64,000 nt of DNA, taken from Gemella morbillorum. Its GTDB lineage: Bacteria; Bacillota; Bacilli; Staphylococcales; Gemellaceae. Position 1 is the stretch's first letter, and each line of letters begins with the position of its first letter. The notes beneath the pieces are model-generated. The model did not search any database and was not told the DNA's origin. It saw only the letters and a list, made by a program, of their open reading frames with translations. The stretch spans positions 310,001-374,000 of the forward strand of contig NZ_LS483440.1 in NCBI RefSeq assembly GCF_900476045.1. The letters run 5' to 3'. Of this stretch, positions 42,515 to 45,346 are shown in pieces. A program made the translations under genes and the position numbers.

Positions 42515-42552
42515 GCTGCTATATAAATTTTATGAAAAGGAGAAACAATTTA

Positions 42553-43365
42553 ATGAAAGATTATTCTTTAAAAAATGATTTTTTAGGGGAGTTAATTGGT
42601 TCATACATTCTAGTGCTATTTGGTACTGGTGCAGTTGCAGCAGCTGTGCTTTACGATGCGCATCAAAGTTTATTCCAAATCGGTATGCTTTGGGCCTTTG
42701 CAGTAACATTTGGTATTTATATGACTCGTAACTTAAGTAATGCTCATTTTAATCCAGCGGTTAGTGTTGCTATGGTCTTAACTGGCAGAATGTCAGCTAA
42801 AAGACTTCCTACTTATATTTTAGGACAGTTTATCGGAGCCTTTTTAGGAGGGTTAACGGTTTATGGAGTTTATGGTTCTTCAATAGCTCAATATGAAGCG
42901 AAAAAAAATATTGTAAGAGGAACTTTCGAATCTGTTACAACAGCAAAAATGTTTGGTGAATATTACAACCAACCTGGAGGATATAGTTTATCTATGCCGC
43001 TTGCTATAGCAGTCGAAGCGTTAGGAACGTTTTTATTAGTACTTATTATTTTCTTATTTACTGAAGGTGCTAATGTTGGAAGACCTAATGATAATACTGC
43101 ACCTATTTTAATCGGGTTAACAGTAGGTTCATTATTATGTCTATTAGCATCAATTACACAAGCTGGAATGAATCCAACGCGTGACTTTGCACCACGTCTA
43201 GTTGCGTGGATGTTTGGTTGGGATGAAGCAGCATTCCCAGATAGTAGTGGAGGTTTCTTCTGGGTTTATATACTTGCACCTATTGTAGGTGGAATACTTG
43301 CTGGATATTTCTTTACATTAGTATTAGAACCAGCTATGAAAAAACAAAAAGAATTAACTAAATAA
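42553..43365 (+). CDS. aquaglyceroporin (MIP family)
   Basis: 270-residue channel with six spans. First pore loop NAHFNPAVSVAM (NPA at 67-69). The second is GMNPTRDFAPR: NPT (207-209) in place of NPA; the Asp after Arg is the glycerol-facilitator mark. It should pass glycerol or other small neutral solutes, which can include arsenous acid. I chose ATG 42553 because AAAGGAGA lies ten bases before it; the in-frame ATG at 42532 comes before that site. The GTPase gene follows after 30 nt, so they are probably co-transcribed. Confidence 0.88.
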   Translation: MKDYSLKNDFLGELIGSYILVLFGTGAVAAAVLYDAHQSLFQIGMLWAFAVTFGIYMTRNLSNAHFNPAVSVAMVLTGRMSAKRLPTYILGQFIGAFLGGLTVYGVYGSSIAQYEAKKNIVRGTFESVTTAKMFGEYYNQPGGYSLSMPLAIAVEALGTFLLVLIIFLFTEGANVGRPNDNTAPILIGLTVGSLLCLLASITQAGMNPTRDFAPRLVAWMFGWDEAAFPDSSGGFFWVYILAPIVGGILAGYFFTLVLEPAMKKQKELTK

Positions 43366-43395: not shown

Positions 43396-44481
43396 ATGGC
43401 AAAGAAAACAGATTTAGTATTAGTCGGTGGATTTTTAGGAGCAGGGAAAACTAGCTTGCTTTTTGAAATGGCAAAAAGATTAAACAAACAAGGGAAAAAA
43501 GTTGGATTAATTACGAATGACCAAGCTAGCGAGCTTGTAGATACATCATTTTTAGAAACTAATGACGATATTGTAGAAGAAGTAAGTGGAAGCTGCTTCT
43601 GCTGTAACTTTAACGGTTTTGCAGATGCTATTAAACATCTTCAAGAACAAAATAATAGTGATATAATTTTTGCTGAGCCGGTAGGTAGCTGTACTGACCT
43701 TTCAGCGACAATTATGCAACCAGTAAAAGAAAAATACAGTGACAGCTTAAATCTAAAACAACTTACAGTATTAGCTGATCCAACAAGATTAAAAGCGGTT
43801 CTTAAAGATCATTCAAATCCTGGAGATTATATTATTTATAAACAATTTGAAGAAGCTGATGTAATCTTAATCAATAAAGTTGAATTATTATCTGAAAAAG
43901 AATTAGCGGAATTAGTAGAAGCTACTAAGAAAGAATTTAACAATGAAAATGTACTAACTACTAGTGTGAAAACTGGAGAAGGTCTAGATGAATGGTTTAA
44001 CCAAATTATCACTAGTGAAAAAGAAGTTGGTCGCAAAATTGTAGAAGTTGACTATGATACTTATGCAGATGGTGAAGCATTATTCGGTTGGTTAAATGGA
44101 ACTTATAGTGTAGAAAAAGAACAAAATTTTGAAGAACTTGCTACTGCATTTTTAGCTAACTTAGCTCAAAGATTTGATTCTGAAAACTTAAACGTAGGGC
44201 ACGTTAAATTCTTATTACAAGGGGAAAATATTGGTTTAGTTGGAAATATTGTAGGGAAAAAAGAAACAGCCGCATTAAGAAAATTAAATGATGGAGAGGA
44301 TGGAGTATTCTTAACTGTAAATGCTCGTGTAGAAGTACACCCAGATAACCTTACTGCAATTATTAAAGAAGAAATTGATAGAGTATTTAAAGAAGTTGGG
44401 TACAAAGAAGAAAAATTAAATGCTTTAATTCCAGGAAGACCAAATCCAACATTTAGATATAGAGAAATTGTAAAACTATAA
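43396..44481 (+). CDS. G3E/CobW-type GTPase, putative metallochaperone
   Basis: 361-residue P-loop GTPase of the CobW/HypB/UreG (G3E) family, whose members load metals into target proteins. Walker A GGFLGAGKTS (11-20), the metal motif C67-F-C69-C70, and NKVEL for guanine recognition near residue 156 are visible. The C-terminal ~140 residues differ from usual CobW_C domains. Metal and client are unknown; zinc is the commonest for this family. Its neighbours are an aquaglyceroporin and an arsenite-methyltransferase-like gene. Confidence 0.88.
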   Translation: MAKKTDLVLVGGFLGAGKTSLLFEMAKRLNKQGKKVGLITNDQASELVDTSFLETNDDIVEEVSGSCFCCNFNGFADAIKHLQEQNNSDIIFAEPVGSCTDLSATIMQPVKEKYSDSLNLKQLTVLADPTRLKAVLKDHSNPGDYIIYKQFEEADVILINKVELLSEKELAELVEATKKEFNNENVLTTSVKTGEGLDEWFNQIITSEKEVGRKIVEVDYDTYADGEALFGWLNGTYSVEKEQNFEELATAFLANLAQRFDSENLNVGHVKFLLQGENIGLVGNIVGKKETAALRKLNDGEDGVFLTVNARVEVHPDNLTAIIKEEIDRVFKEVGYKEEKLNALIPGRPNPTFRYREIVKL

Positions 44482-44523: not shown

Positions 44524-44563
44524 TTAGTTGCTTGAGTTGTAAAATTCAAGCAACTAAATTTTT
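44524..44563 (+). terminator. terminator between the G3E GTPase and methyltransferase genes
   Basis: TTAGTTGCTTGA and TCAAGCAACTAA form a perfect 12-bp stem with a 10-nt loop, then ATTTTTAG. It ends only 28 nt before the methyltransferase start, so it could also act as an attenuator in that gene's leader if transcription starts after TAAAAT near 44510. Confidence 0.8.
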
Positions 44564-44590: not shown

Positions 44591-45346
44591 ATGTCACAAA
44601 ATAATATTAAAATAAGAGTTTCTGTAGGGAAATTTTATGATGACATATCAAAAAATAAAAAGAAAACAAAAGTAGACTCTAAAGCACTTAGTATGTCATT
44701 AGGTTATGATGAAGATATTATCAACGAATTTTCTGATGAGATTAATATGGGGCTTTCTTGTGGGAATCCAATTAACCACTTAAAAATTAAAGAAGGACAA
44801 ACTCTAATTGATTTAGGTTGTGGTGCAGGTATGGATATTTTCGTTACAAAGATGAAAAATCCAAAAGTCGGAATGCTTTATGGTTTAGATAGATTAGATT
44901 CTATGTTGGAAAAAGCTCGTAAAGTAGTAGAAAGCAAGAACTTTGATAATATAGAATTTATTAAGGGTGAACTAATCGATATTCCTTTAGAGGACAAATC
45001 GGTGGATAGAGTTATTAGTAACTGTGTTATTAACCTTGAACCAGATAAACAACAAGTTTACAATGAAATCTATCGTATATTAAAAGATGATGGTATGTTT
45101 GTTATTTCTGATATAATTTTAAAACAAAGCTTACCAGAAAAGTGGAAAAATTCTGAAAAACTATATTGTACTTGAGTGGCTGGGGCTCTTCTGGAAGAAG
45201 AGATGGTTGATATTATAAAAAAAGCAGGCTTTACAAAATTCCAGATTATTAATTCAGATGTTACAGAAGAATATGCTGAAAAATGGGGTTATGGTAAGGG
45301 AATGAAAGACTATATACAAAGCGGGTTATTAATAGGTAGAAAATAA
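44591..45346 (+). CDS. arsM: arsenite methyltransferase-like protein with in-frame TGA (selenocysteine candidate or pseudogene)
   Basis: SAM-dependent methyltransferase; ArsM makes methylated arsenicals from arsenite. Start ATG after AAAGGAGAG. Residues 54-60 GLSCGNP (C57) match the first arsenic-binding cysteine of ArsM, then the SAM motif DLGCGAGMDIF, and SNCVINLEPDK. At 45173-45175 a TGA interrupts the frame after residue 194 (LYCT); reading through gives VAGALLEEEMVDIIKKAGF and 56 codons in all to TAA at 45344. The TGA falls exactly where relatives have Cys before (V/L)(A/G)GAL. If the TGA is decoded as Sec the protein is 251 residues with U195. If not, translation stops at 194 and the catalytic Cys is lost. 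The third ArsM cysteine is absent. See findings. Confidence 0.75.
45186..45202 (+). promoter_or_regulatory. SECIS-like hairpin after the in-frame TGA
   Basis: CTCTTC-TGGAA-GAAGAG: six perfect base pairs and a 5-nt loop whose second and third bases are G. The loop begins 16 nt after the TGA, at the short end of the range known for bacterial SECIS elements. The codons here (GTG, GGG, CTG, GAG) are G-rich compared with the AT-rich usage around them. Confidence 0.4.

Follow-up and report, generated by a model that had tools for sequence, protein, structure and literature searches.

The window analysed here is a 64,000-nucleotide (64 kb) stretch of the Gemella morbillorum genome, a 1.76-Mb single contig. 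Its plus strand carries an ArsM-like SAM-dependent methyltransferase gene at positions 44591–45346, with an AAAGGAG ribosome-binding site upstream of the ATG at 44591 and a TAA stop codon at 45344–45346. The reading frame comprises 251 codons whose sole interruption is a TGA at 45173–45175 (plus strand; codon 195), followed by 56 further codons; translation bears out the initial annotation, which described a frame intact on both sides of this triplet. With the UGA read as a predicted selenocysteine (Sec195), the product has 251 residues. In a profile search it matches the arsenite methyltransferase family NF008823 / PRK11873 (E 2.8e-68, 230.3 bits), and it also matches PF13847. Because the NF008823 score lies under the curated cut-off of 263 while the homology is clear, the protein is termed "ArsM-like" here.

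The gene lies behind a MIP-family channel gene (42532–43365) and, directly upstream, a CobW-family gene (43396–44481), and members of the MIP family can transport uncharged metalloid hydroxides. A scan placed a terminator-like hairpin downstream of the CobW-family gene and ahead of the ArsM-like gene (44524–44557, plus strand), and the latter is therefore probably a separate transcript. Among the neighbourhoods read, the channel and CobW-family genes adjoin the ArsM-like gene in the window and in the genomes G001 and G005, and the ArsM-like gene of G002 has another location that lacks this arrangement. There is no ars operon beside the gene, acr3 was not found in the seven Gemellaceae genomes in which it was sought, and an Rfam search with the gene returned chance-level matches only. 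The CobW-family protein itself scores 68.7 bits, below the cut-off, against an NCBIfam family of CobW-related selenoproteins and has cysteine in the corresponding motif (GSCFCCNF).

Two ORFs of at least 100 codons in the window end in a TGA and stay open for at least 50 codons beyond it; the second of these (minus strand, 31091) was rejected as the antisense shadow of a surface-protein gene. TGA flags in MenG-like matches from other genomes (L039 and L043) precede the start codon, and were dismissed as alignment-extension artefacts. Elsewhere, an ArsM-like gene of G411 (L104, ~1785) has an in-frame TAG within its SAM domain (MTP-stop-MIKLARK) and is either a pseudogene or a case of amber recoding.

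Conservation of the TGA codon and the downstream hairpin

The TGA at codon 195 is present in eight of the nine Gemella species genomes, among them G. sanguinis ATCC 700632 with an orthologue of 86% identity. The ninth genome (G005) has TGT, as does G014, a member of another genus of the Gemellaceae, and the residue in this column is cysteine in all other homologues. The orthologues are 78–86% identical across the whole gene. Synonymous sites between these species are near saturation, so a recent accident does not explain the shared TGA. Among the TGA carriers, dN is 0.015–0.075 after the TGA versus 0.107–0.170 before it, and the dN/dS ratio of the downstream segment, where dS is unsaturated, is approximately 0.03–0.06 and lower than that of the upstream segment, which indicates strong purifying selection on the codons beyond the TGA.

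A predicted bacterial SECIS hairpin occupies positions 45186–45202 (plus strand), with stem arms at 45186–45191 and 45197–45202 (CTCTTC/GAAGAG; six base pairs, CUCUUC/GAAGAG in the RNA) and a five-nucleotide loop at 45192–45196 (TGGAA; UGGAA in the RNA), in which a closing U-A pair would leave GGA. The geometry given in the initial annotation was recovered by folding: the stem starts at nucleotide 11 past the TGA and 16 nt separate the TGA from the loop. Published rules for bacterial SECIS elements describe a loop of 3–9 nt, a stem of 4–16 bp, a G in loop positions 1–2, a spacing of 16–37 nt, and a minimum free energy of at most −7.5 (PMC13188914). The hairpin agrees with these rules in its 6-bp stem, the G at loop position 2, and the 16-nt spacing, and its minimum free energy is −8.4 kcal/mol across 36–42 nt and −7.4 across 30 nt; the comparison with a bacterial SECIS model proposed in the initial annotation thus came out in favor of the hairpin.

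The codons that encode the hairpin are constrained beyond their amino acids. From codon +4 to codon +10 past the TGA (GCT CTT CTG GAA GAA GAG ATG), synonymous positions are identical in all TGA carriers, and the lone change, a non-synonymous GAA → GGA in G004, converts a U-A pair into U-G. Third positions vary freely in the three codons just ahead of +4, and outside the hairpin only 1 of 18 leucine codons and none of four alanine codons are invariant. When synonymous codons for the same peptide were resampled, a stem as long with an energy as low was reached by 0.4% of the resampled sequences for this gene, by 0.1–0.4% for each of the other TGA carriers, and by 10–24% for the cysteine-type relatives G005 and G014. 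In these two TGT relatives the hairpin has decayed, with loss of the loop GG and of two stem pairs.

Selenocysteine machinery and the history of the codon

The initial annotation was correct that the window contains no sel genes, since the window starts at 310,001 and the tRNA-Sec and sel genes lie ~62–75 kb upstream of it on the same chromosome. The tRNA-Sec (anticodon TCA) is encoded at C1:235213–235305 (68.7 bits), selA scores 594 bits and selB 346 bits, and the cluster at ~241–248 kb consists of selD, yedF, a DUF3343-type gene, selB, a Sec-lyase-like desulfurase gene, and selA. The selD gene (L018 7200–8346, corresponding to G000:C1 ~241338–242246) is itself a predicted selenoprotein gene: its frame contains a TGA at the classical position (CGG-U-NSKIGPG), followed by a hairpin, and an in-frame TGA is found in selD of all 11 Sec-positive Gemellaceae genomes. 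A plain ORF caller places the start of selD too late, at a TTG.

The machinery and the ArsM-like gene do not always occur together in the family. G009 has the full machinery without a close ArsM orthologue, and G005 has kept all of its sel genes though its ArsM-like gene is of the cysteine type, so that selenocysteine in G005 probably has another use beyond SelD. Considered together, G009 and G005 suggest that SelD is probably not the only selenoprotein of the Gemellaceae; selU/mnmH, another use of SelD, was sought in seven Gemellaceae genomes and not found. The cysteine-type gene of G014 is the last in an operon with the order selD-yedF-DUF3343-selB-desulfurase-selA (L075 4587–11970) and starts 12 bases behind selA; in most Gemella, the ArsM-like gene is distant from the sel genes. 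The protein tree has G014 as the outgroup and nests G005 within the Sec-bearing Gemella, a placement with moderate support (96/75). This topology fits a single gain of selenocysteine in Gemella with one reversion to cysteine in G005, and two gains are a possible alternative history.

Ligand residues, fold, and unusual cysteines

Alignment to CmArsM pairs the TGA with Cys224, equivalent to Cys206 of human AS3MT, and not with AS3MT Cys156 or algal ArsM Cys174 as the initial annotation had it; the counterpart of Cys174 is the intact Cys145 (ISNCVINL; 45023–45025, plus strand). Cys57 (44759–44761, plus strand) corresponds to CmArsM Cys72 and AS3MT Cys61, and neither these two cysteines nor the Cys/Sec at 195 show any variation among 41 homologues. 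Positions 72, 174, and 224 of CmArsM-type enzymes have been described as As(III) ligands, and ArsM proteins are recognized by at least three of four cysteines at positions 44, 72, 174, and 224 (PMC5552862). With selenocysteine counted as cysteine, three of the four (72, 174, and 224) are present in the Gemella protein and position 44 lacks one.

Two further features set the Gemellaceae proteins apart. Cys193 (45167–45169, plus strand) forms a CxU motif with Sec195, and every one of the 10 Gemellaceae orthologues has this cysteine, as does the separate Sec-ArsM L080; the other 43 homologues lack it at this site. The N-terminal stretch contains two to five cysteines in all 44 compared homologues outside Gemellaceae versus none in the 10 Gemellaceae proteins; the two apparent exceptions, from L020 and L028, fall upstream of the start codon and were discounted. 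In human AS3MT, Cys156 and Cys206 are required for both methylation steps, and only the first step depends on Cys32 and Cys61 (PMC3877260). Lacking the N-terminal cysteine needed for that first methylation, the Gemella protein may favor methylarsenite as substrate or rely on Cys193 instead.

An AlphaFold2 model with a pLDDT of 91.5 has an ArsM fold with a SAM domain; a run from nine close sequences only gave a pLDDT of 52.6 and was discarded. The best fold matches of the model are CmArsM (Z 24.2, 208 residues aligned, rmsd 2.5 Å) and CrArsM (Z 24.1, 206 residues, 2.4 Å); algal arsenic methyltransferases are the nearest solved relatives in sequence as well as in fold.

A candidate selenoprotein among arsenic methyltransferases

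Judged from sequence, the locus as a whole is very likely a functional selenoprotein gene encoding an ArsM-like enzyme with Sec195 as a metalloid ligand. The initial annotation had proposed a selenoprotein from the TGA and hairpin; the Sec machinery, the conservation of the TGA, purifying selection, and the hairpin all support this reading. Insertion of selenocysteine at UGA 45173 appears almost certain, and assignment of the protein to the ArsM-type metalloid methyltransferases can be made with good confidence. The hairpin after the UGA would recruit SelB with Sec-tRNA(Sec), and the codon would then be decoded as selenocysteine to yield the 251-residue methyltransferase. From alignment and fold, the selenolate of Sec195 would replace one of the three As(III) chalcogen ligands of ArsM/AS3MT and would sit with Cys57 and Cys145 by the SAM pocket. 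The most likely substrates are As(III), methylarsenite, or another soft metalloid of this type. The cysteine at −2 together with the lack of N-terminal cysteines suggests that the CxU pair stands in for the N-terminal cysteine relay, and a Cys193–Sec195 selenenylsulfide probably does the redox work of the N-terminal cysteines of other ArsMs.

The initial annotation also weighed inactivation of the gene by one nonsense mutation from TGT or TGC to TGA, and the TGT of the close relatives G005 and G014 does place the two states one base apart. Such a pseudogene is very improbable, since the identical TGA is shared by eight species with near-saturated synonymous sites, purifying selection acts strongly on the codons beyond it, and the hairpin is kept only alongside the TGA. 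The annotation had linked this outcome to a genome devoid of sel genes and tRNA-Sec, or to relatives with TGT or TGC and no conserved hairpin; tRNA-Sec, selA, selB, and selD are all present, and eight of nine Gemella genomes keep both TGA and hairpin. From these comparisons, conservation of the TGA and the dN/dS beyond it appear to rule out a pseudogene for practical purposes. Equally hard to credit is a UGA that acts as a true stop, giving a 194-residue truncated protein and leaving the remainder as a remnant: whole-gene identity of 78–86% would also allow retention of a truncated form, but the segment after the UGA is at least as conserved as that before it and, according to the model, contains structured parts of the fold, and its loss would take away the third arsenic ligand and with it the function. 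UGA reassignment occurs in other bacteria, but decoding as tryptophan (or cysteine) by a recoded or near-cognate tRNA has very little to recommend it here, as UGA terminates 4 of the 60 window ORFs that reach 100 aa or more, the residue is cysteine in all other relatives, and a bona fide tRNA-Sec (TCA) and the UGA of selD exist.

The substrate is less firmly placed than the decoding, in view of the NF008823 score under the cut-off, the missing N-terminal cysteines, the lack of an adjacent ars operon, and the failure to find acr3 in the seven genomes searched. Arsenic is the somewhat favored prediction for the natural substrate. A competing view, which concerns the substrate and leaves Sec insertion untouched, is a selenoprotein methyltransferase that acts on selenium or another metalloid in selenium handling. 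It would agree with the low family score, the missing N-terminal cysteines, the negative acr3 search in those seven genomes, and the position of the G014 orthologue directly behind selA; it is considered unlikely given that all three arsenic-ligand positions are retained, the gene lies far from the sel genes in most Gemella, and G009 lacks an orthologue despite its Sec machinery. One may tentatively put forward a distinct, Sec-dependent form of ArsM that has a CxU selenenylsulfide beside the metal site in place of the N-terminal cysteine relay and, as the sel-operon location of the G014 cysteine orthologue hints, a role in selenium or mixed metalloid handling.

Gemella is a common human commensal genus of the mouth, and very probably uses selenocysteine; no earlier report of a Gemella selenocysteine or selenoprotein was found in the open-licence literature. 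On the Sec reading, a gene apparently truncated by a stop codon is intact, and the Cys206/Cys224 ligand of arsenic methyltransferases would be a site of evolutionary exchange between sulfur and selenium. The natural Sec/Cys pairs of Gemella, such as the proteins of G. morbillorum (G000) and G005 with 80% identity, offer a direct way to test how selenium affects the methylation of metalloids.

The Sec-containing arsenite methyltransferase is reportedly an observation of Fomenko et al. in 2007. Such enzymes are already a listed selenoprotein family, NF008823, with the motif UxxG (PMC13188914, PMC9312934). The Sec-ArsM is thus a known kind to which the Gemella protein, with U-V-A-G at this site, would add a member, and the Gemellaceae form may be distinctive in its score below the family cut-off (230 versus 263), the lack of N-terminal cysteines, and the cysteine at −2. 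The ArsM-type domain with a UxxG selenocysteine is also shared with the fusion selenoproteins NF041536 and NF041537 (ArsM-DUF2284 and ArsM-AhpD) and with NF047649 (MTase/UXPK-star), whereas the Gemella protein is single-domain, lacks a second Sec domain, and scores 119.8–132.8 against cut-offs of 460–575. G358, from another class of Bacillota, has a separate ArsM-like gene (L080, 1334) in which TGA interrupts the frame at the corresponding codon, and selA is also present in that genome; the gene shares the CxU motif and a SECIS-like hairpin (UUCUUC AGUU GAAGAA), but it is 42% identical, retains an N-terminal CC motif, and groups apart from Gemellaceae in the tree. Among enzymes of known structure, CmArsM (4FR0, 6CX6) and CrArsM (5EVJ) share the fold, the SAM domain, and the three arsenic-ligand positions (C72, C174, and C224) with the Gemella protein, which is 31–32% identical to them, has the predicted Sec at the C224 site and Lys31 at the C44 site, and lacks the algal C-terminal part. 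Through CmArsM, Cys61, Cys156, and Cys206 of human AS3MT correspond to Cys57, Cys145, and Sec195 of the Gemella protein, which is shorter than the human enzyme and has no equivalent of its Cys32.
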